DNA of 64,000 bases, from positions 1 through 64,000 of the forward strand of contig NZ_AQXE01000008.1 of assembly GCF_000375485.1 (NCBI RefSeq), in the 5' to 3' direction. The stretch comes from Desulfovibrio oxyclinae DSM 11498. Its GTDB lineage: Bacteria; Desulfobacterota; Desulfovibrionia; Desulfovibrionales; Desulfovibrionaceae. Numbering within the stretch: the first letter of the stretch is position 1; the number at the start of each line of letters is the position of its first letter. A program made the translations under genes and the position numbers. This document shows positions 31,270 through 47,821 of the stretch, piece by piece. The notes under the pieces were generated by a model. That model saw nothing but the letters and a program-made list of their open reading frames with translations. It was not told where the DNA came from and ran no database searches.

Positions 31270-32553
31270 CTATGAGCCGAGGTGTTCCTTGAGCTGTTTC
31301 ACCGCGCAGAACTTGCCGCACATGGTGCACACGTCCTCGTCCTCGGGGCTGCGGCTGTCGCGGATCCTGCGGGCAGTGACCGGATCAAGGCAAAGGCGGT
31401 ACATGCCTTCCCAGTCCATGTCCGCACGGGCCTTGGCCATTTCACGATCGCGCTGCACCGCCTGCTCATTGCCGCGCGCTATATCCGCCGCGTGGGCAGC
31501 GATGCGCGTGACGGCCACGCCTTCGTACACATCGTCCGGACCGGGCAGGGCGAGGTGCTCGCTCGGCGTAACGTAGCAAAGGAAGTCAGCGCCGGACCAC
31601 GCGGCAATCGCCCCGCCGATGGCGCAGGCCACATGGTCTCGCCCTGCAGCCACGTCCGTGACCAGCGGTCCCAGTACATAGAAGGGAGCATTGTGGCAAA
31701 GCCGTTTCTGAAGCTCCATGTTGGCGCGGATCTGGTTCATGGGTACATGCCCGGGCCCCTCAATGATGATCTGCACGCCCGCATCCCACGCCTGTTGTGT
31801 CTGCTCGCCAAGGGTGATCAGTTCATGAATCTGCGTCCGGTCCGTCGCATCCGCAAGGCAGCCAGGCCGACACGCGTCGCCCAGACTCAGGGTGACGTCG
31901 TACTCACGAGCGATTTCCAGAACCCTGTCGAAATGCGTATACAACGGATTCTCCGCCCCGTTCGCCACCATCCAGCAAGCAAGGAACGACCCGCCGCGGC
32001 TGACGATGTCCAGAATACGCCCTTCCTTCTTCATGCGCTCCAAAGCACCCAGCGTGAACCCGGTGTGCAACGTCATGAAATCCACACCTTCGCGAGCCTG
32101 ATCCTCAACCACTCGAAGCAGGTCGTCGATGGTCATGTCAACGATGCCGCCGCCACGAGCCGTCACGTCCGCAGCAGCCTGATAGATGGGAACCGTCCCC
32201 ACCGGAACAGGACAGTGTTCCAGCGTCTGCCTCCGCAGGTTGCCCAGCTCACCGGCGATGGAAAGGTCCATCACCGCGTCAGCACCTGCATCCAGCGCCG
32301 CACGAAGCTTCAACAGCTCCTGGTCCGGATCCTCATGGTCCGGGCTCGCGCCGATGTTTGCGTTCACCTTGACGCTCAACCCCTCGCCCACGCCACGTAA
32401 CTCACTCTTCTCATGCAACGGATTATGCGAAATACTCACCCGCCCCGCAGCCATAGAACGCCGAAGCGCCTCCACATCCAATCCCTCCCGCTCGGCAACA
32501 AACGCCAAAGCGTCCGAGACCTTACCGGAACGGGCAATCTCCAGTTGTGTCAT
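31270..32553 (-). CDS. thiC: Phosphomethylpyrimidine synthase ThiC
   Basis: ThiC converts aminoimidazole ribotide to the pyrimidine unit of thiamine by radical SAM chemistry. The 427-residue protein has the family blocks RVSISHNPLHEK, VKVNANIGASPDHED, EGVDFMTLHTGF and VIIEGPGHVPMNQI-like segments. It ends with the C-terminal [4Fe-4S] motif CTMCGKFCAV. Start 32553 has GGGAG six bases upstream. It is preceded by a TPP riboswitch and an intrinsic terminator, so it is controlled by thiamine pyrophosphate. Confidence 0.96.
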   Translation of the reverse strand: MTQLEIARSGKVSDALAFVAEREGLDVEALRRSMAAGRVSISHNPLHEKSELRGVGEGLSVKVNANIGASPDHEDPDQELLKLRAALDAGADAVMDLSIAGELGNLRRQTLEHCPVPVGTVPIYQAAADVTARGGGIVDMTIDDLLRVVEDQAREGVDFMTLHTGFTLGALERMKKEGRILDIVSRGGSFLACWMVANGAENPLYTHFDRVLEIAREYDVTLSLGDACRPGCLADATDRTQIHELITLGEQTQQAWDAGVQIIIEGPGHVPMNQIRANMELQKRLCHNAPFYVLGPLVTDVAAGRDHVACAIGGAIAAWSGADFLCYVTPSEHLALPGPDDVYEGVAVTRIAAHAADIARGNEQAVQRDREMAKARADMDWEGMYRLCLDPVTARRIRDSRSPEDEDVCTMCGKFCAVKQLKEHLGS

Positions 32554-32601
32554 GAAATACTCCCAATTCTTCAGGTTCAAAGAAATGGGCGGAAAAAAGG
32601 C

Positions 32602-32627
32602 AAAAAAAATTCCACCCGCAGGTGGAA
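32602..32627 (-). terminator. Riboswitch-controlled terminator upstream of thiC
   Basis: Hairpin TTCCACC / GGTGGAA followed on the minus strand by eight T residues, between the TPP aptamer and the thiC start. Its placement fits transcription attenuation when thiamine pyrophosphate is bound. The competing anti-terminator was not worked out. Confidence 0.85.
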
Positions 32628-32649
32628 CACAGAAGGAATGCGCTTCGCA

Positions 32650-32740
32650 ATGCCGTTTCCTCCGCCGGTACAAGCCGGGTCAGGTTCCAAGGGTTGTCGA
32701 TCATGCGACTCTCAGCCCACAACAGGGCACCCCTACGGTC
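32650..32740 (-). promoter_or_regulatory. TPP riboswitch aptamer (THI element)
   Basis: On the minus strand the conserved THI blocks are visible in order: AGGGGTGCCC, GGGCTGAGAG, then ACCCTTGGAACCTGACCCGG and a closing ACCGGCGGAGGAAA. These are the pyrimidine- and pyrophosphate-sensing helices of the TPP aptamer. The target is thiC, about 100 bases downstream, via a terminator. Confidence 0.95.
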
Positions 32741-32816
32741 AAAAAAGAACCTAGCAAGAGTTGATTCGCCAATCAATGCTTTTTACAAATTGGAAGAGGA
32801 ATGCGTCCGCCTTTGC

Positions 32817-33294
32817 CTCCGGCGGGCAGGGGCGCTGCCCCTGCACCCCGCCAAAGGGGCGGGCCCCCTTTGGAATCCCTGGGTTGTCAGCGGGGTTGCA
32901 GCTGCCGGGTTCATGCGACCGCATAACTCGCATCCCAGCTGCAACCCCGTTGACGGAAATTTTGGGGTCTGTGCGTCTTGGCTGACGAACTCGATTAACC
33001 AAACGACATCTCAAGGGACTCTCGCGGCGCACACGCTCACCAATACTCTCAAGAAAGCAGCTACTCCCGCCAACCAAGTACCGCAGCAATGCCGATCGAG
33101 GCATAGAGGCTCTTTTGACCGGTCACGCAGGTCAGGGTGGTGTTTGTTAGCCACAAACGTTTCACCCGGAGCAGTGACCGCGTCATAGAGCCTCTCGCCG
33201 AGAACGGCGGCTCACCCCCAACAGCGCAGTTTTTGCCTTCTTTTTTCTGCGCAAGCAAAAAAGAAGGTCGGCCAACAGGCCGAAACCTGCAACT
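32817..33294 (-). repeat. Dispersed 0.48-kb non-coding repeat, copy B
   Basis: The reverse complement of this stretch matches copies C and D (41767-42237, 42253-42707) along its length, with the middle more diverged. Landmarks are the 19-bp inverted repeat with arms 32886-32904 and 32936-32954 (one mismatch) and a conserved block around 33180-33220 (tagagcctctcgccgaga). The far end has a CTTCTTTTTT / AAAAAAGAAG hairpin at about 33236-33267. The reading frames across it are low-complexity and not shared between copies. It stands upstream of the hdr-mvh operon. Confidence 0.85.
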
Positions 33295-33749
33295 GGTGCG
33301 CCTCAAGGCCCTTCTCTCTGGCCGAAAAAACCGACATCACCATTCTGGCCGTCTGCTGCTCCGAAAAACCTCTGGAAGGTAGTATTTTTCAAGAAAAAAG
33401 CACCAATCAGGCTGGTTTTATAGCTGATGGGTCACTAGCGCTTCGCCGTCATTCGAGAATGCCGCGAACTGTTCAAGGCGGCATGTTTTACCTGCCATTG
33501 CCTGGGGTTATGGATGAGCATTGATGTTTCAAGGGGTTGTCACGATAGCATTTTTCTATCTTTGGCCTATTTACGGATTTGCCGTTTTTGAGTATGAGGA
33601 CGTATCCATTCGTTTGTTCAGTTCAGTGGAGTGGACTGAACGACGAGTCGGTTTTCCGGATGAATCATCCCTTTTCCCGAAGGGGTGTTTTCGGACGGAT
33701 TCCGTTCTTTTATATGCAGTGGGAAACCCTTAACAATGAGGTGAGGAGT
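33295..33749 (+). promoter_or_regulatory. 455-base upstream region of the hdr-mvh operon with an operator-like palindrome
   Basis: No gene is supported here; the in-frame extension of the first hdr gene to 33579 and a 70-codon frame at 33521 lack ribosome sites. The region is more A/T-rich than the genes around it. At 33621-33641 there is a perfect palindrome GTTCAGT-N7-ACTGAAC, with an additional overlapping GTTCAGT at 33616, about 110 bases before the start codon. This is a candidate operator or activator site for the operon. Confidence 0.45.
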
Positions 33750-35048
33750 ATGGGCGAACCCGCAATAGTTCTTGAAGGTGGAGTCAAATCCACGTTCAAG
33801 GACAAGGTCATGGAGCTTCTGCCGGAAGGTGGAAACCTCAACATGTGCCTTACGTGCGGTCTGTGTTCTTCCGGCTGTCCGGCAACCGGACTGGAAGAAA
33901 TGGACCCCAGGAAATTCCTGCGTATGGCCATGTTGGGTATGGATGAGGAGATTCTTAATTCGAAATGGATCTGGATGTGCACCATGTGTACGCGTTGCGT
34001 GTACGCATGTCCCATGCAGATCAACATCCCGCAGCTGGTCTACAACGCCCGCGCGGCGCAGGATCGCGAAAACAAGCCCAAAGGCATTGTCGGTTCCTGC
34101 GACCAGGGTCTCAGGACCGAAGGCGCCAGCGCCATGGGCGCCAGCTCGGAAGACTTCAAGTTCGTCGTGGAGGACGTGCTTGAAGAGGTCTGCGAGGATC
34201 AGGAATCCTGCAAGGACCTGAAGGTGAGCATCAACCGCAAGGGTGCTCATTTCTATCTGAACCAGAACTCTCGCGAGCCGGTCACCGAGCCGGATGAGAT
34301 GGTTCCTCTTTGGAAGATTCTCAATGTCGTCGGCGCCGACTGGACCTACGGGACAGTTGGCTGGGCGGCTGAGAACTACTGCCTGTTTGCAGCGGAGGAC
34401 GAGAACTGGGAAGCCATTGTCAAGAAGAAGATGGACGCGGTGAGCGAACTCGGGGTCAAGAGCTGGCTCAACACCGAGTGAGGCCACGAATTCTACGCAG
34501 TCCGGGCCGGACTGCAGAAATTCGGCATGGAAGTGCCTTTCGAGCTCGAATCCATCATCAGCTACTATGCACAGTGGATCCGTGAAGGAAAACTCCCGGT
34601 CAACTCCGACTGGAACAAGGAACTCGGCGTCAAATTCACCGTTCAGGACCCCTGCCAGCTGGTCAGGAAGTCTCTGGGTGATCCCGTGGCCGAGGACCTT
34701 CGCTTCGTCGTGAAGCAGGTTGTCGGTGAAGAAAACCTCATCGACATGCACCCGAACAAGTCCAACAACTATTGTTGCGGCGGCGGGGGCGGATTCCTGC
34801 AGAGCGGTTTCCCCGAAGCGCGCAGGTACTACGGCAAGCGCAAGTTTGATCAGATCATCGCCACCGGCGCTGACTACTGCATCACCCCTTGCCACAACTG
34901 CCATTCCCAGGTTCACGATCTCGCGCACCACTTTGGTGGCACGTATCAGACCGTCCATCTTTGGACGCTGATCTGTCTCTCGCTCGGCATTCTGGGCGAG
35001 AACGAGCGCGAGTACCTCGGCGACGACCTCAAGGAAGTCGGCCTGTAG
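33750..35048 (+). CDS. HdrC-HdrB-like (HdrD-type) iron-sulfur selenoprotein
   Basis: Read through the TGA at 34479-34481, the gene encodes 432 residues. The N-terminal third is HdrC-like with two [4Fe-4S] motifs (C33/C36/C39/C43 and C77/C80/C83/C87). The remainder is HdrB/HdrD-like. Residue 244, encoded by TGA, occupies the Cys of an ECGH-type motif (NTE-U-GHEFYA). The C-terminal CCG set (DPCQL, CCGGGGG, CHNC) is complete. The reading frame, protein family and codon use continue across the TGA, and a hairpin follows it. The expected role is a disulfide-reducing catalytic site supplied by HdrA. ATG 33750 follows GAGGTG. Confidence 0.9.
34488..34523 (+). promoter_or_regulatory. Candidate bacterial SECIS hairpin, HdrB-like gene
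   Basis: Immediately after the TGA an outer stem (GAATTCT / AGAAATTC with a bulged A) encloses an inner stem GCAGTCC / GGACTGC and a five-base loop GGGCC starting 23 bases after the TGA. Bacterial SECIS elements lie at about this distance and start their loop with G. Confidence 0.7.
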
Positions 35049-35085
35049 GCGGAACTGAACGGAACGAGATTCCAAGGAGGACTCA

Positions 35086-38000
35086 ATGTCTGCGAATAAA
35101 CTTGGATCGGTCATGGTCGTCGGCGGCGGTATCGCCGGTATTCAGACGGCGCTTGATTTGGCCGACTCCGGTTATTACGTGCATTTGATCGAGAAGAGTG
35201 CCGGTATCGGCGGCGTCATGGCGCAGCTGGACAAGACCTTCCCGACCAACGACTGCGCGATGTGAATCATCTCGCCCAAGTTGGTTGAGTGCGGTCGGCA
35301 CTTAAATATCGAGTTGCATACACTGGCAGAGGTTCAGAACGTTTCCGGCGATGAAGGCAACTTCACCGTGACGGTGAAGAAGTCCCCCCGATACGTGGAT
35401 ATGGAAAAATGTATCGCGTGCGGGGAATGTGCCGCGAAATGTCCCAAGAAAGTTGACGACGAATATCAGGCCGGTCTTTCCAAAAGGAAAGCCGCCTACA
35501 TCCCTTACGGGCAGTCCGTGCCGCTGAAGTACGCTTTGGACGGCGCAACCTGCATCATGATCCAGAAAGGCAAGTGCGGCGCCTGTGAAAAGGTCTGCCC
35601 CACCGAGGCCATCAAGTTCGACGACAAGGAAGAAATCGTCGATCTGAACGTCGGTTCGGTCATTCTCACGCCCGGTTTCAAGGCGTTCGATCCGTCCGAT
35701 CTGGATTACACCTACTACAAGGAACTCCCTGACGTAGTGACCTCGCTCGAATACGAGCGCCTGCTGTCTTCCTCCGGTCCCTGCCACGGCCACCTGACCC
35801 GCCCCTCGGACGGCAAGGAGCCCGCAAAGATCGCATGGCTGCAGTGCGTCGGTTCGCGCGACATCAATCGCTGCGGCAACGGATTCTGCTCCAGCGTGTG
35901 CTGCATGTACGCCATCAAGCAGTCTGTCATCACCGCCGAGCACACCACCGGCGACATCGACCAGACCATCCTGTACATGGACATCCGCAGCCACGGTAAG
36001 GAATTCGACAAGTACTACGAAAACGCCAAGACCAACGGGATCAACTTCGTGCAGGCACGCCCGCACACGATCCTGCCCGGTCCCGACGGTGTGGGTGCCA
36101 TCATCCAGTATGCCGACAAGTCCGGCAACATGGTCGAGGACGTGTACGACCTCGTCGTGCTGTCCATCGGTCTGGAAGCGCCCAAGGACGCCAAACAGCT
36201 GTCCGAAACCGCCGGGTTCGAACTGAATAAGTACGGCTTCGTGGAAACGAACTCCTTCGAGCCGGTGTCCACCTCCAGGCCGGGAATCTACTCCTCGGGC
36301 GCGTTCAACGCTCCCATGGACATCCCGCAGGCGGTCACCGACGCTTCCTCCGCAGCGGCCACCGCTGCCAAGCGGCTGGCGGAAGTTCGCGGCACCATGA
36401 CCGAGGAAAAGGTCTGGCCCGAAGAGCGCGACATCTCCGGTGAGGAGCCGCGCATCGGCGTGTTCGTCTGTTCCTGCGGTACCAACATCGCGGGCACCGT
36501 GGACGTCAAGGCCGTCTCGGAATATGCCGCGGCCCTGCCCGGCGTGCAGATGGTGGAGAACAACATGTTCACCTGTTCCACCGACACGCAGGAGCTGATC
36601 AGCCAGAAGATCAAGGAAAACAACCTGAACCGCATCGTGGTCGCTGCGTGTACGCCGCGCACCCACGAGCCGCTGTTCAAGGAAACGCTGAAGGAAGCGG
36701 GCCTCAACGAGTACCTCGTTGAAATGGCGAACATCCGCAACCAGAACAGCTGGGTCCACCAGAACGAGCCCGAAAAGGCCACCGAAAAGGCCAAGGATCA
36801 GGTCCGCATGGCTGTTGCCAAGGCCGCGCTGCTCCAGCCCCTGAGCAAGATGTCCGTGGACGTCACGCAGAAGGCGCTGGTGGTCGGCGGCGGCATGTCC
36901 GGCATGACTTCCGCCCTCGGCATCGCCGACATGGGCTACGAAGTGGTGCTGCTCGAAAAGAGCAACATGCTGGGCGGCAATGCCTGGTCGCTTTCCCAGA
37001 CCTGGCGCGGCGAAGAGATTCGCCCCGAGGTGGAGAAGATGGCGGCCAAGGTGGACAACCACGAGAACATCACCGTGCTCAAAAACGCCATGCTCAAGAC
37101 CGCCGTCGGTTCCGTCGGCAACTTCGTGAGCGAGGTGGAAGTGGATGGCGAAACCAAGGCCATCAAGTACGGCGTTGCCGTGGTCGCCACCGGCGGCAAG
37201 GAATACAAGCCGAACGAATACGGCTACGGACAGTCCGACCGGGTGAAGACGCATCTGGAATTCGACAAGATGCTCGATTCCGGCGACTCCGCCAAGGCCG
37301 ACTCCGTGGTCTTCATCCAGTGCGTCGGTTCCCGCAACGAAGAGCGCCCCTACTGCAGCCGCGTATGCTGCACCCACTCCGTGGAGAGCGCCATCCGTCT
37401 GAAGGAACAGAAGCCCGAGATGAACGTCTACGTGCTCAACCGCGACATCCGCACCTACGGCCTGCGCGAGGACCTGTACACCAAGGCCCGCAAGCTCGGC
37501 GTGATCTTCATCAAGTACACGCTGGACGGCCTGCCGCAGGTGGACGCTTCCGGCGACTCGGTCTCCGTGAAGGTCAATGATCCCATGCTGGGTCGCGATC
37601 TGGACATCAGGGCCGATTACCTCGTTCTCGCCACGGCCATCGTGCCCAACGAGACGAGAGAACTGGTCGAGCTGTATAAATGCGCTACGGGCGATGACGG
37701 GTTCCTCACCGAGGCACACCCGAAACTCCGCCCCGTGGACCTGTCCGTTGACGGCCTGTTCGTCGCCGGTCTGTGCCACTATCCCAAGCCCATCGATGAA
37801 GCCATCGGTCAGGCCCAGGCGGCCAGCAGCCGCGCCGGAGTCATTCTGGCACGCACCGAGATGCCTCTCGACTCCATCAAGAGCGAGGTCACCGAGCATT
37901 GCGACGGCTGCGCCCTGTGCGTGGACACCTGCCCCTACAACGCCATCAGCCTTGAAGCATTCGAGGATGAGAAGGGCAAGGAACACCGCAGGATCGCCAC

Positions 38001-38127
38001 CGACAAGGCTCTGTGCAAGGGATGCGGCGTGTGCATGGCCACCTGCCCGAAGGGCGGCGTGGAAGTGAACGGCTTCACCATGGCCCAGCTCAAGGCGCAG
38101 GTTACCTCCGCCTTGGCAGGACTCTAA
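35086..38127 (+). CDS. hdrA: Double-length HdrA flavoprotein, selenoprotein
   Basis: Read through the TGA at 35263-35265 this is a 1013-residue HdrA, the flavin bifurcation subunit. It holds two FAD-binding halves. The first starts [12 protein letters not shown], followed by ferredoxin-type clusters [12 protein letters not shown] and CGACEKVCP. The second contains [10 protein letters not shown] and [11 protein letters not shown], with a terminal pair [12 protein letters not shown] and [12 protein letters not shown]. Sec60 replaces the conserved Cys in the segment [14 protein letters not shown]. The start is fixed by AAGGAGG. The fused architecture suggests both HdrA and HdrA-like electron entry in one chain. 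Without readthrough the gene would be broken after 59 codons. Confidence 0.92.
35285..35305 (+). promoter_or_regulatory. Candidate SECIS hairpin, hdrA
   Basis: Eight-base-pair stem TTGAGTGC / GCACTTAA (one G-U pair) with loop GGTCG, which begins 28 bases after the TGA at 35263. The loop resembles the GGTC(T) loop of the E. coli fdhF element. Confidence 0.65.
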
Positions 38128-38142
38128 TCGAAGGAGTTGAAA

Positions 38143-38568
38143 ATGGCTGACTTCGAACCGAAAATCATCGGCTTCCTGTGCAACTGGTGCGCATACGCCG
38201 GTGGCGACCTGGCCGGTGTTTCCAGGTTGAAATATCCTCCGAACATGAAAGCCGTGCGGGTGATGTGCTCCGGCATGGTCCATCCGGACCTTGTGGTGGA
38301 TGCCCTCAAAGGTGGCGCCGACGGCGTCATCGTCATGGGCTGACACCTCGGAGAATGTCATTACCTGGATGGTAATCATAAAGCATTGGCAAGGGCCGGA
38401 GCTACCGAACTGCTGTTGGAAGACCTCGGCGTCGATCCCGAAAGGTTCGCCATCGAATGGGTCTCCTCCGCGGAAGCTCCCCGGTTTGCGGAAGTGGTCA
38501 CCAAGTTCACCGAGAAAATCAAGGAACTTGGGCCCAATCCCGCGAAAAGCAAAAAGGCTGCAGCCTAA
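38143..38568 (+). CDS. mvhD: MvhD-type electron-transfer subunit, selenoprotein
   Basis: A 141-residue [2Fe-2S] protein that links the hydrogenase to HdrA. Family ligands are C13, C16, C42, then Sec67 in place of Cys (VMG-U-HLGECHYLDGN) and C72. The TGA is at 38341-38343. The family motif (GADGVxVxGCHxGxCHYxxGN) is intact on both sides, so this is a readthrough and not a nonsense mutation. AAGGAG precedes the ATG. It starts 15 bases after hdrA and ends 12 bases before mvhG. Confidence 0.93.
38360..38376 (+). promoter_or_regulatory. Candidate SECIS hairpin, mvhD
   Basis: Six-base-pair stem ATTACC / GGTAAT with loop TGGAT beginning 23 bases after the TGA, the same distance and loop as in mvhA. 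The loop also encodes the family residues Leu-Asp, so part of the identity may come from protein constraint. Confidence 0.6.
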
Positions 38569-38580
38569 GGAGGACTCGCA

Positions 38581-39516
38581 ATGGTCAAGATTGCAGAAGA
38601 GTGGCTGAACTCCTGTTCGGGCTGCGAAATCGCCATACTGAACATCGGCGACGTGCTTGTGGACCTGCTCCCCTCGCTGGAGTTCGTGCACATCCCCGTG
38701 CTGATCGACAAGAAATACTATGGCCAGACCGGTGAAGGCACGGAGCTGGACATCCCTGAAGCGGTTGTCGGCATCGTCTCCGGCGGCGTGAAGAACGAGG
38801 AGCACCTTGAAGTGCTCAAGAAGATGCGCGAACGCGTGCAGATTCTGATCGCCCTGGGCACCTGCGCCACCGACGGCGGTATCCCCGCGCTGGCCAACAT
38901 GTATTCCAACGACGAAATCCGCGACTTCGTGTACCGCGACTCTCCGACCACGGAAGCCGGTCCGAACCCGGACGTCAAAGGAAACCATATCCCGGACATG
39001 CTCGAAAGCTGCTCCGCCCTCGACGAACACGTCAAGGTGGATTTGAAGCTGCCCGGTTGTCCCCCGCATCCCGACTGGATCGCCGCCGCCATTCTGTCCC
39101 TGCTGGACGAGAAGAACGTGCTGGAGCTTCCGGAAAAGTCGGTTTGCGACACCTGTCCGACCCAGAGGGAACGCAAGAAGAGCATGGGCGACATCCGGCG
39201 CATGCTTGAGACACCGGACTACGACCCGGAAAAGCCCATCAGCGAAATGCGCTGTCTGCTGGAGCAGGGCTTCATGTGCCTCGGCCCGGTCACCAAGGCC
39301 GGCTGTTCCGGCATGACCGGCGAGGCTCCGCGCTGCATCAGCGCGCGCGTGCCCTGCCGAGGCTGCTACGGTCCCGTCCGTGATGACCGCATTCCCCTCG
39401 TGGACTACGTCGGCGCACTGGCGACGGTGGGCTACGACCCGTCCCGCATGCCGGACCGTCGCGGCTATCTCTGCCGCTTCAACGGCGGGCACGGCGTCCT
39501 GAAAAAACTGGGTTAA
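38581..39516 (+). CDS. mvhG: [NiFe]-hydrogenase small subunit MvhG
   Basis: A 311-residue small subunit of the group 3 (F420-non-reducing type) cytoplasmic hydrogenase. It carries iron-sulfur clusters and has no Tat signal, as expected. Cluster ligands are seen in SCSGCEIAIL near the N terminus, GTCATDGGIP, LPGCPPHPDW and the C-terminal CMCLGPVTKAGCSG-type and CRGCYGP region. It is flanked by mvhD and mvhA with 12-base gaps. It has no in-frame TGA. Confidence 0.94.
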   Translation: MVKIAEEWLNSCSGCEIAILNIGDVLVDLLPSLEFVHIPVLIDKKYYGQTGEGTELDIPEAVVGIVSGGVKNEEHLEVLKKMRERVQILIALGTCATDGGIPALANMYSNDEIRDFVYRDSPTTEAGPNPDVKGNHIPDMLESCSALDEHVKVDLKLPGCPPHPDWIAAAILSLLDEKNVLELPEKSVCDTCPTQRERKKSMGDIRRMLETPDYDPEKPISEMRCLLEQGFMCLGPVTKAGCSGMTGEAPRCISARVPCRGCYGPVRDDRIPLVDYVGALATVGYDPSRMPDRRGYLCRFNGGHGVLKKLG

Positions 39517-39528
39517 CAGGAGTAAATG

Positions 39529-40974
39529 ATGAGCAAAACGCTGAGAGTAGCGCCCATCACCCGCATTGAGGGCCACGCCGGGTTCGAGATTATGCTCGAC
39601 GACAACGGAAACGTTGCCGATGCCCGGATGCAGGTCATGTCTCTGCGGGGATTCGAGAAGTTCGTTGTGGGCAGACCCGTGGAAGAGGTCTCCCGCATCG
39701 TCAACCGCATCTGCGGTATATGCCCGTGGCAGCACCATCTGGCGTCCAACAAGGCCGCCGACCTCTGCCTCGGAGCCGAAGTGCCCGAAACCGGCAGGAA
39801 ACTCCGTGAGCTGTGCCAGATGTTGGCCTACATTCCGGACAAGATCCTGCACTTCTACTTCCTGGCGGCCCCGGACTTCGTCATGGGTCCGGATGCGGAC
39901 TATTCGGTCCGCAACGTGGTCGGCGTGGTCGGCGCCGTGCCCGATCTGGCGAAACAGGTCGTGCACATGCGCTACAAGACCCAGATGGCGCTCGAAAAGT
40001 TTGCCGGAAAGGTCATCCACCCCATCGCGGCGGTTGTCGGCGGCTTCTCCAAGCCGCTGCTGGAAGATGAACGCAAGGAACTGCTGGAAGTCGTCAAGGA
40101 AGCAAAGGACTTCTGCCTGTTCACCATCAAGTTCGCACGCGAAAACGTGTTCCCCAAGTATCTGGAAGCCGTGAAGACGCTGGGCGTCTTCCCCTCCGGT
40201 TACATCGGAACCGTGGACGGCAACGGCTCCCTTGAGCTGTACGACGGCCAGCTGCGCCTGATGAACATCGACGGCTCCTACGACCAGTTCGACTACTCCG
40301 AGTATCAGGACTACATCGCGGAGCACGTCGAGGACTGGTCCTACCTGAAGTTCCCGTACATCAAGAAGGCCGGGGGCATTAAGCTGGACGAAAACGACCC
40401 CGTGGGCGTCTACCGTTCCAACTGCCTTGCACGCGTCAACGTCTGCGATCAGATGAAAACGCCGCTCGCGCAGGAGGAACTGGAGATATTCCGCAAGGAG
40501 TTCGGTCGTCCCGCGCACTTGACCCTGCTGTATCACTGGGCCCGCCTCATCGAGCTGGTGCAGTGCTGCGAACGTGCGGAAGAACTGCTCAACGACCCCA
40601 AGATCACGGGACGCGAAATCCGCGCCGAAGGCATCAAGCCGCAGGCCGGAGAAGGCGTCGGCTGCGTGGAAGCTCCGCGCGGCACCCTGATCCACCACTA
40701 CAAGACGGACAGCGACGGCATGGTCGAACAGGCCAACCTGATTGTGGGAACCACCCACAACAACGCCGGCATGAACCTGTCCATCAAACAGGCCGCCAAG
40801 GCGGTCATCAAGGATGGCAAGTACGACGAGGAGGTCATGAACCTCATCGAAATGGCCGTACGCGCCTACGATCCGTGAATGTCCTGCGCTACCCACCGCC
40901 TGGATGGCGGTATGGCCATGGAACTGAAGATCGTCGACGCTCAAGGCAACGTCCTTGATACCTTCAATAAGTAA
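39529..40974 (+). CDS. mvhA: [NiFeSe]-hydrogenase large subunit MvhA, selenoprotein
   Basis: The 481-residue large subunit that holds the Ni-Fe active site. N-terminal ligands are ICGICP (C62, C65). At the C terminus the usual DPCxxC reads DP-U-MSCATH: Sec450 from the TGA at 40876-40878, then Cys453 and His456. A further 25-residue tail follows and would be removed by the maturation protease encoded next. ATG 39529 is preferred to 39526 because of better spacing from AGGAG. Replacing the first of the C-terminal Cys ligands with Sec is known from [NiFeSe] and Methanococcus Vhu hydrogenases. Confidence 0.94.
40895..40911 (+). promoter_or_regulatory. Candidate SECIS hairpin, mvhA
   Basis: Six-base-pair stem ACCGCC / GGCGGT with loop TGGAT starting 23 bases after the TGA, matching mvhD in stem length, loop and distance. 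It lies in the part encoding the cleavable C-terminal tail, which would leave the sequence freer to form an RNA signal. Confidence 0.65.
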
Positions 40975-41027: not shown

Positions 41028-41124
41028 TCTTTCCGCGCAAGCGACGGCTGCGGTTCAATCTGTTTTATGCTACTGACGTGCACCTGCTAACGTGGCTTCG
41101 GCCACACGACCTGTGAGAAAGCGC

Positions 41125-41628
41125 ATGGACTGGTCAAAAATGTTTACCTCCCGCGTGGTGGTGTTCGGCTGCGGAAACATTCTCATCGGCGACGACGCCG
41201 CCGGACCGAGAGTGATAGAACTGCTCGAAAAGGATGCCGAGATTCCCGAAGACGTGGGGCTGCTTGATGTTGGCACCTCCATCAGAACCATCCTCTTCGA
41301 CCTCATCGTGGCCCCTACACCGCCCGAACGGGTCGTGGTCATCGATGCCACCACCGAAGAGCAGGGCCGCGAGCCCGGAGAGTTCTGGGAAATCAGTATC
41401 GACGGCATGGACCCCAAAAAGGTCAACGATTTCTCCCTGCACATGTTCCCCACCGTGAACCTTCTCAAGGACCTGAAGGAGAACACGGGCATCGACGTGA
41501 AGATTCTCGTGGTTCAGACCGGGTACGTCCCCGACGAGTTGGACGAGACCATGAGCCCCGAAGTTGAAGGCGTGCTTCCGGCCATGGCCGAGAAGGTCAA
41601 ACAATGGTGTATGCCCGAGAACGGCTGA
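41125..41628 (+). CDS. Hydrogenase maturation endopeptidase (HycI/HyaD family)
   Basis: A 167-residue protease that cleaves the C-terminal tail of the large subunit once nickel is inserted. Family marks are VVVFGCGNILIGDDAAGPRVIELL (with the nickel-sensing Asp in GDDA), VVVIDATTEE and a later His in the LHMFP segment. Starts at 41092 (GTG), 41125 and 41140 are all possible; 41125 is chosen for length. It lies directly after mvhA and would act on it. Sec450 would be part of the site it inspects. Confidence 0.88.
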   Translation: MDWSKMFTSRVVVFGCGNILIGDDAAGPRVIELLEKDAEIPEDVGLLDVGTSIRTILFDLIVAPTPPERVVVIDATTEEQGREPGEFWEISIDGMDPKKVNDFSLHMFPTVNLLKDLKENTGIDVKILVVQTGYVPDELDETMSPEVEGVLPAMAEKVKQWCMPENG

Positions 41629-41766
41629 TTGAAGGCTGTTCGGAAAGATTTTGAAAGCCCGGGGTCCATAAGGAACTCCAGGTTTTTGTTATTCTCGTGA
41701 GTTGAAGAGTATTGGAAGCGGAGCATCAAGCCTTGCGGCCCGATGGGTGACTGTCCTGTAAGCAGC

Positions 41767-42237
41767 AGTTGCAGGTTTCGGCCTGTTTGCCGACCTTCTT
41801 TTTTGCTTGCGCAGAAAAAAGAAGGCAAAAACTGCGCTTTTGGGGGCGCGCCGCCGCTCTCGGCGAGAGACTCTATGACGCGGTCACTGCTCCGGGCGAA
41901 TTGTCTGTGGCTACAGGCACCACCCGGACCTGCGTGACCGATCAAAAGAGCCTCTAGACCTCGAACGGCATTGCTACGGTACTTGGCTGGCTGAAGAAGA
42001 TGCTTTGATTGAAATTCTGTTGGGAGAATGCGTGCATTGAAGGGGCTCTTTTTAATGAAACTCTGCCAACGTATTTCGTCAGCCAAGATGCACAAAACAT
42101 AGATTCCCGTCAGCGGGGTTGCAGCTGGGACGCGGATTGTGCGGCCGCATTGCTCCAGCAGCTGCAACCCCGCTGACAACCCAGGGATTCCAAAGGGGGC
42201 CCGCCCCTTTGGTCCGCCTGAAAGGCCCGCCGGAGGC
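41767..42237 (+). repeat. Dispersed 0.47-kb non-coding repeat, copy C
   Basis: First of two tandem copies downstream of the hdr-mvh operon, inverted relative to copies A and B. It starts with AGTTGCAGGTTTCGGCC, then a CTTCTTTTTT / AAAAAAGAAG hairpin. It ends with the 19-bp inverted repeat (arms 42109-42127 and 42159-42177, perfect) and a GC palindrome at 42189-42213. Copy D is almost identical over most of its length. No shared protein is seen among the copies. Confidence 0.88.
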
Positions 42238-42252
42238 AATGCAGTTGTGCTC

Positions 42253-42707
42253 AGTTGCAGGTTTCGGCCTGTTGGCCGACCTTCTTTTTTGCTTGCGCAG
42301 AAAAAAGAAGGCAAAAACTGCGCTGTTGGGGGTGAGCCGCCGCTCTCGGCGAGAGGCTCTATGACTCGGTCACTGCTCCGGGCGAATTGTCTGTGGCTAC
42401 AGAAAGTACGAGGAAAAGAGCCTCTAGACCTCGAACGGCATTGCTACGGTACTTGGCTGGCTGAAGAAGATGCTTTGATTGAAGTTCTGTTGGGGAGTGT
42501 GTGCACAGAAGGGGCTCTTTTTAACGAAACTCTGCTAACGTATTTCGTCAGCCAAGATGTACAGAACGTAGATTCCCGTCAGCGGGGTTGCAGCTGGGAC
42601 GCGGGTTGTGCGGCCGCATTGCTCCAGCAGCTGCAACCCCGCTGACAACCCAGGGATTCCAAAGGGGGGCCGCCCCTTTGGTCCGCCTGAAAGGCCCGCC
42701 GGAGGCC
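42253..42707 (+). repeat. Dispersed 0.46-kb non-coding repeat, copy D
   Basis: Second tandem copy, separated from copy C by 15 bases. The 19-bp inverted-repeat arms are at 42578-42596 and 42628-42646. It matches copy C closely, including a long near-identical block (42417-42494) that begins agagcctctagacctcgaac. A short deletion relative to copy C is visible around 42400. The close match suggests a recent duplication. Confidence 0.88.
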
Positions 42708-47727: not shown

Positions 47728-47821
47728 TGGCGGAAGCGTATAGGAGTCGAACCTACCGACGAGGATTAGCCCGTCCACTGGATTTGAAGTCCAGGCGCCA
47801 CACCGGTGACGAAACGCTTCC
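47728..47821 (-). tRNA. selC: Selenocysteine tRNA (tRNA-Sec, anticodon TCA)
   Basis: On the minus strand the sequence folds as tRNA-Sec. The 8-bp acceptor GGAAGCGT / ACGCTTCC is longer than in ordinary tRNAs. The anticodon arm CTGGACTTCAAATCCAG carries anticodon TCA at 47785-47787. There is a long variable arm, a T arm with GGTTCGACTCC, discriminator G and an encoded CCA (47728-47730). This reads UGA and supports decoding of the four in-frame TGA codons upstream in the window. Confidence 0.96.

Follow-up and report, generated by a model that had tools for sequence, protein, structure and literature searches.

The window analysed here is a 64,000-nucleotide stretch of DNA from Desulfovibrio oxyclinae DSM 11498, in which five closely spaced + strand genes span positions 33750-40974 when in-frame TGA codons are read as residues. 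The genes of interest in the window are these:

33750..35048, + strand: HdrCB-like (GlpC-like or HdrD-type) Fe-S oxidoreductase, 432 amino acids; Pfam Fer4_8 and CCG
35086..38127, + strand: HdrA, duplicated and rearranged, 1013 amino acids; NF040770 (HdrA2), 938.9 bits against a cut-off of 1100
38143..38568, + strand: MvhD/VhuD/FlpD, 141 amino acids; PF02662, 173.4 bits
38581..39516, + strand: MvhG, 311 amino acids, without selenocysteine (Sec); PF01058; NF045875 (VhuG) below cut-off
39526..40974, + strand: MvhA, [NiFeSe] hydrogenase large subunit, 482 amino acids; PF00374; stretches matching NF041785 (VhuA) and NF041786 (VhuU), both below cut-off
41092..41628, + strand: hydrogenase maturation protease (HycI/HyaD family); PF01750; TIGR00072, 102 bits against a cut-off of 47.45
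47728..47821, - strand: tRNA-Sec (selC), anticodon TCA; ARAGORN, and Rfam RF01852 with 81 bits at 47732-47821

The five operon genes are separated by gaps of 37, 15, 12 and 9 nucleotides, each has a Shine-Dalgarno-like stretch upstream, and the protease gene begins 117 nucleotides 3' of mvhA. Pfam and NCBIfam families, gene order and spacing agree with an initial annotation, made from the sequence, that read these genes as HdrCB-like, HdrA, MvhD, MvhG and MvhA. None of the five products reaches the curated NCBIfam cut-off of the model it matches by name, so they are best regarded as related to those narrow families and not as belonging to them. MvhA carries the ligand motifs of the Mvh/Vhu [NiFeSe] type (RICGIC at 61 and DPU at 449, the latter in DPUxxCxxH), and its VhuU-like C-terminus includes an extension beyond the His of DPUMSCATH. 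The family assignment of HdrA holds, with the small correction that this 1013-residue protein is a duplicated and rearranged HdrA.

The HdrCB-like label needs a further qualification. Pfam recognises an HdrC-type ferredoxin part, as the label implies, and a single CCG domain. Methanogen HdrB has two CCG domains. Because only one is recognised here, the subunit is not a plain HdrC-HdrB fusion. A methanogen-type HdrABC has separate HdrB and HdrC, and at this locus we found one CCG stretch fused to an HdrC-like Fer4 part; as judged from domain content, the Hdr unit of the operon is Hdr-like, not HdrABC.

Upstream of the operon, a TPP riboswitch (32640-32744, 66.8 bits) lies in the interval 31270-32744 of the window on the - strand, where it either overlaps or immediately precedes a gene that has its end at 31270 (- strand) and resembles thiC.

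Exactly one in-frame TGA occurs in each of the HdrCB, HdrA, MvhD and MvhA genes, and none was found in the MvhG or protease genes. The four codons are at the positions the initial annotation had reported, and are predicted to encode the following residues:

34479-34481, + strand: Sec244 of the HdrCB-like protein, motif NTEUGH
35263, + strand: Sec60 of HdrA, motif NDCAMU (NDCxxU)
38341, + strand: Sec67 of MvhD, motif GUHLGECHY (GUHxGxCHY)
40876, + strand: Sec451 of MvhA, motif DPUMSCATH (DPUxxCxxH)

The frame and family match had been proposed to continue across each TGA, and in Pfam, NCBIfam and 5odc alignments it does extend to both sides in all four genes. The codons were also said to stand at conserved Cys positions. 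In the HdrCB-like protein the site is Cys in 29 of 29 aligned homologues, within an invariant ECGH, a sample drawn from the best 120 of 2668 matches in databases that favour unbroken Cys versions. The sites in HdrA, MvhD and MvhA align with Cys residues of 5odc_A, 5odc_D and 5odc_F, respectively, in the solved complex of Methanothermococcus thermolithotrophicus (PDB 5odc).

TGA recurs at the same codons in other genomes. The HdrCB site is TGA in 80 of the 80 best named loci, a figure that is biased because loci were kept as closest to the Sec query. A survey of the class (247 genomes) gave 94 places that match HdrCB with at least 60% identity and cover the site (a fragment, G234:C61, was excluded because it does not cover it). 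One in-frame TGA is present in 81 of these places, one of which also has a TAA and one of which is a fragment; 12 have no stop and one has TAG only. For 30 of these 81 places, among them the operon gene of D. oxyclinae itself, the TGA was confirmed to be at the Sec site. The site in MvhA is TGA in all 20 fetched loci, and that in MvhD in all 17 measurable loci (MvhD was unmatched in the other three of the 20); both counts include the D. oxyclinae gene. Two HdrCB homologues with other stops (G008:C1:868921-870177 and G011:C35:16084-17328), one with TAG and no TGA and the other with TGA and TAA, could be pseudogenes, errors or instances of recoding.

A standard ORF call with translation table 11 splits or truncates the TGA-bearing genes, as had been anticipated. 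Such a call is what would be seen if the TGAs were sequencing errors or true stops in broken or split genes, and the failure to find selD in the assembly (see below) is in keeping with that explanation as well. Against it stand the presence of TGA at the same codon in independent genomes (80/80 for HdrCB, 20/20 for MvhA and 17/17 for MvhD, the last two including the D. oxyclinae genes), the fact that each gene has a single in-frame TGA and that this codon coincides with a conserved Cys, and the presence of tRNA-Sec, selA and selB. We therefore give errors or true stops a negligible probability.

A bacterial SECIS element is a hairpin just 3' of the UGA, with a G within the first two positions of its loop. 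Predicted folds place a hairpin 3' of the UGA at all four sites, with an apical loop that begins 23-28 nucleotides past the UGA and has a G among its first two positions:

34479..34523, + strand: SECIS-type hairpin in the HdrCB gene, apical loop beginning 24 nucleotides past the UGA
35263..35307, + strand: SECIS-type hairpin in hdrA, GGUCG loop 28 nucleotides past the UGA
38341..38385, + strand: SECIS-type hairpin in mvhD, UGGAU loop 23 nucleotides past the UGA
40876..40920, + strand: SECIS-type hairpin in mvhA, UGGAU loop 23 nucleotides past the UGA

The evidence for these putative elements differs among the genes. It is strong for HdrCB, where the hairpin has a z-score of -2.25 relative to shuffled sequences, ranks sixth among the gene's 432 codons in folding energy and is found in 78 of 80 named relatives. 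This hairpin is also linked to Sec, occurring in 30 of 30 Sec genes versus 1 of 12 Cys genes. Relatedness is uncontrolled in this contrast: the Sec genes were drawn from the sequences that match the window best, and the Cys genes, which are all of the no-stop places covering the site at 60% identity or above, are more distant (60-70% identity). The evidence is fair for mvhA (z-score -1.52, rank 20 of 482). Of the 20 loci compared, D. oxyclinae included, all have the inner five pairs, 13 have the outer pair and 16 are predicted to fold into the hairpin. For hdrA and mvhD the evidence is weak. Their hairpins are of ordinary stability (z-score -0.96 and rank 283 of 1013 for hdrA; z-score -0.05 and rank 62 of 141 for mvhD), and folding stability alone fails to set either site apart from the rest of its gene. 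All six stem pairs of the mvhD hairpin are kept with zero variation in 17 of 17 loci, a pattern in which coding constraint also preserves bases, and the hairpin appears in the predicted fold of 11 of the 17.

Among the best 80 named loci, the closest named relative is that of Salidesulfovibrio brasiliensis JCM 12178 (NZ_BBCB01000090.1; locus L058), which has the six genes in the same order, including a maturation protease adjoining MvhA, with all four TGAs and 87-96% protein identity. A Desulfonatronum metagenome-assembled genome (L065) likewise shares the gene order and all four TGAs, and the full set of four Sec genes, differently ordered, is present in two further loci (L102 and L111). Thus, all four Sec genes lie within the fetched stretch in 4 of the 80 named loci. 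A fifth (L135) has three, at which point its fetched stretch stops, and no mvhG or mvhA match was found in the fetched stretches of the other 75, many of which are short. Of the 247 genomes of the class, 24 carry a Sec-type MvhA, which in two is a fragment; the set contains 31 genomes of the genus, and 2 of these carry it. One MvhA gene of Sec type was matched in the D. oxyclinae genome.

HdrCB genes with a TGA also occur in other settings. A second Sec-HdrCB gene of D. oxyclinae (contig C2:192560-193813; L141) is solitary: the 19.9 kb fetched around it contain no match to hdrA or to any mvh gene. In several genomes a TGA-bearing copy lies in tandem beside a copy without a stop, such that Sec and Cys paralogues adjoin:

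G013:C12:480807-483411: tandem Sec/Cys HdrCB pair
G118:C2:35516-38121: tandem Sec/Cys HdrCB pair
G229:C1:622471-625064: tandem Sec/Cys HdrCB pair
G167:C5:229120-231764: tandem Sec/Cys HdrCB pair

A dispersed intergenic repeat of ~450 nucleotides flanks the D. oxyclinae operon (window positions 32851-33299 and 41762-42706), with one copy on the left and two tandem copies on the right in inverted orientation. Across the genome this repeat gives 99 matching pieces; many are incomplete or overlap one another, and some lie at contig ends. A mobile cassette bounded by the inverted repeat is not our favoured reading of the operon, given that the repeat is also scattered elsewhere through the genome and is unmatched in the S. 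brasiliensis locus L058 and in two loci of another genome, G170 (L019 and L200), all three of which cover part of the surroundings. The absence of a match to the bracketing repeats in L058 is a difference between that locus and the D. oxyclinae operon.

The D. oxyclinae genome encodes three of the components by which bacterial Sec decoding is recognised, namely selA (614.3 bits), selB (389.9 bits) and selC. The first two are elsewhere in the genome and score over their cut-offs, and the third is the tRNA-Sec gene in the window. The initial annotation had proposed a search for selA, selB and selD, and had regarded their absence as evidence against selenocysteine. Two of these genes are present. 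The third, selD, went undetected in the assembly (32 contigs, 99.78% complete), an outcome that at face value counts against selenocysteine. Its best profile score there is 32.4 bits, short of the cut-off of 125 and no higher than many secondary matches reach in other genomes, and a search with the SelD protein gave no match.

An assembly gap is the likelier explanation for the missing selD, because close relatives have the gene and because repeats sit at contig ends. The selD profile exceeds its cut-off in 33 of 39 genomes of the family (a set that includes D. oxyclinae), and selD is present, with one TGA each, in all 10 other same-genus genomes compared, which were hand-picked from genomes carrying the HdrCB gene. 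It is also present in another genome of the genus (G004) and in S. brasiliensis, which differs in this respect from the D. oxyclinae assembly. Copies of the dispersed repeat are found at both ends of contig C6 and at ends of C8, C17 and C18. Synteny gave no location for a gap, since the stretch around selD in G170 corresponds to several unconnected internal positions, on D. oxyclinae contigs C6, C4 and C19.

Decoding of UGA as Sec without SelD, by means of another source of selenophosphate, would account for the failure of both the profile and the protein search in a 99.78%-complete assembly that nonetheless supplies selA, selB and selC. We consider this very improbable in view of the selD genes of the 10 same-genus genomes, G004 and S. 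brasiliensis, and of the dispersed repeats at contig ends, points at which sequence may have dropped out of the assembly. In addition, the DNA flanking selD in S. brasiliensis has no match in the D. oxyclinae assembly, in a search conducted without a positive control. Scarcely more credible is a broader proposal in which the four-selenoprotein operon is inherited patchily, as the counts of Sec-type MvhA above would suggest, and passes between sulfate reducers as an intact module, with the host's own selD lost or replaced here and a non-standard Sec supply. By inference, then, we retain an assembly gap as the better explanation, and selenocysteine is strongly supported as the predicted residue at all four sites because of the tRNA-Sec in the window, selA and selB, the alternation of TGA and Cys in homologues, and the SECIS-type hairpins.

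We are confident that the locus represents one operon for a soluble Mvh-type [NiFeSe] hydrogenase joined to an Hdr-like, probably electron-bifurcating unit, with Sec predicted in four subunits. The families found fit the earlier suggestion of an H2-driven Hdr-Mvh complex, which is most likely cytoplasmic, H2-dependent, ferredoxin-reducing and, by analogy, flavin-bifurcating. Each UGA would be read as Sec through SelB, tRNA-Sec and the hairpin directly after it, and the adjoining protease probably trims the MvhA extension past DPUMSCATH. H2 would be split at the Ni-Fe-Sec site of MvhA, and electrons would pass through MvhG and MvhD, with its Sec, to the flavin of HdrA, which has Sec in the NDCxxC motif. 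At this flavin the electrons would bifurcate, with one branch leading to ferredoxin and the other to the HdrCB-like subunit, which may reduce a disulfide or other thiol-type acceptor at the cluster of its CCG domain, with Sec244 nearby. Sec insertion, assembly of the complex, bifurcation (by analogy), direction of flow and acceptor are all features that we infer.

A predicted model of the HdrCB-like protein (mean pLDDT 85.8) resembles EtfD, HdrB and HdrC in a comparison with the PDB. In this model, Sec244 sits between a strand (238-241) and a helix (245-257), and Cys381 of the CCG part sits between a strand (376-379) and a helix (382-395). The similar placement of the two residues suggests that Sec244 may face the same cluster as the CCG part.

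Alternatively, Sec could be inserted into a complex that is not an H2-oxidising bifurcase. This possibility overlaps with our preferred explanation, the Sec part being common to both, and we regard it as unlikely, although far less so than the alternatives weighed above. The complex may run in reverse, by confurcation, and evolve H2 from ferredoxin and a thiol donor, or electrons may enter at MvhD from a formate dehydrogenase. The direction of flow is not readable from sequence, and the architecture fits either direction. Moreover, Hdr complexes whose partner is formate dehydrogenase or another protein (7bkb and 8rvu) were among the hits of the PDB comparison, and several hdrA/hdrL loci of Desulfobacterium autotrophicum that include mvhD contain formate dehydrogenase genes as well (PMC2702500). 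However, mvhG, mvhA and the maturation protease gene are within the same cluster in D. oxyclinae, which indicates that the hydrogenase is the encoded partner. The hydrogenase-linked bifurcating complex remains our preferred assignment.

The initial annotation considered Sec at four points in one operon to be unusual. This is not borne out, as the arrangement is already known. In Zhang et al. 2006, a five-gene operon, glpC-hdrA-frhD-frhG-frhA, is described in Syntrophobacter fumaroxidans and Desulfotalea psychrophila, with GlpC, HdrA, FrhD and FrhA as its selenoproteins, and the operon here is not new because that description has the same five-gene, four-Sec order (PMC1794560). Compared by published text, the two agree in the five genes, their order, the four genes that encode selenoproteins and a small-subunit gene without Sec, and in hdrA genes that are joined to each other, as reported for the bacterial operons (PMC1794560). 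The organism is a different one, and S. fumaroxidans has the operon three times (PMC1794560), whereas one MvhA gene of this type was matched in D. oxyclinae, which additionally carries the lone second Sec-HdrCB gene. A 2026 review again terms the glpC-hdrA-frhD-frhG-frhA type a four-selenoprotein-gene operon, lists an Fe-S oxidoreductase-like selenoprotein family with a UGH motif, and mentions an operon holding six selenoprotein genes (PMC13188914).

Related systems share subsets of these features. The archaeal hdrA-frhD-frhG-frhA (Vhu) operon of Sec-using methanogens has Sec in the HdrA, delta and alpha subunits, as here (PMC1794560, PMC13188914), but as described in the former source it is without the GlpC/HdrCB-like selenoprotein (PMC1794560). 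The MvhADG-HdrABC complex of M. thermolithotrophicus (5odc) aligns well in HdrA, MvhD and MvhA, with Cys at the three Sec positions, and differs in having separate HdrB and HdrC chains and a single HdrA, in place of the fused HdrCB-like protein and duplicated HdrA. Like D. oxyclinae, D. autotrophicum HRM2 has Sec-containing Hdr and Mvh proteins: HdrA1, HdrA2, HdrD4 and four MvhD are listed as selenoproteins, and a Sec hydrogenase, MvhA2DG, is clustered with the Sec-containing HdrA1 (PMC2702500). The portion of that paper considered here does not describe a single five-gene, four-Sec operon (PMC2702500).

The D. oxyclinae operon opens no new question and extends a published operon type to one more lineage. 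It illustrates soundly how gene calling with translation table 11 truncates four subunits of what is probably one energy-conserving complex. The clean division of the HdrCB hairpin between Sec and Cys genes should be useful to others, as should the observation that the HdrCB-like protein is often in Sec form outside this operon.
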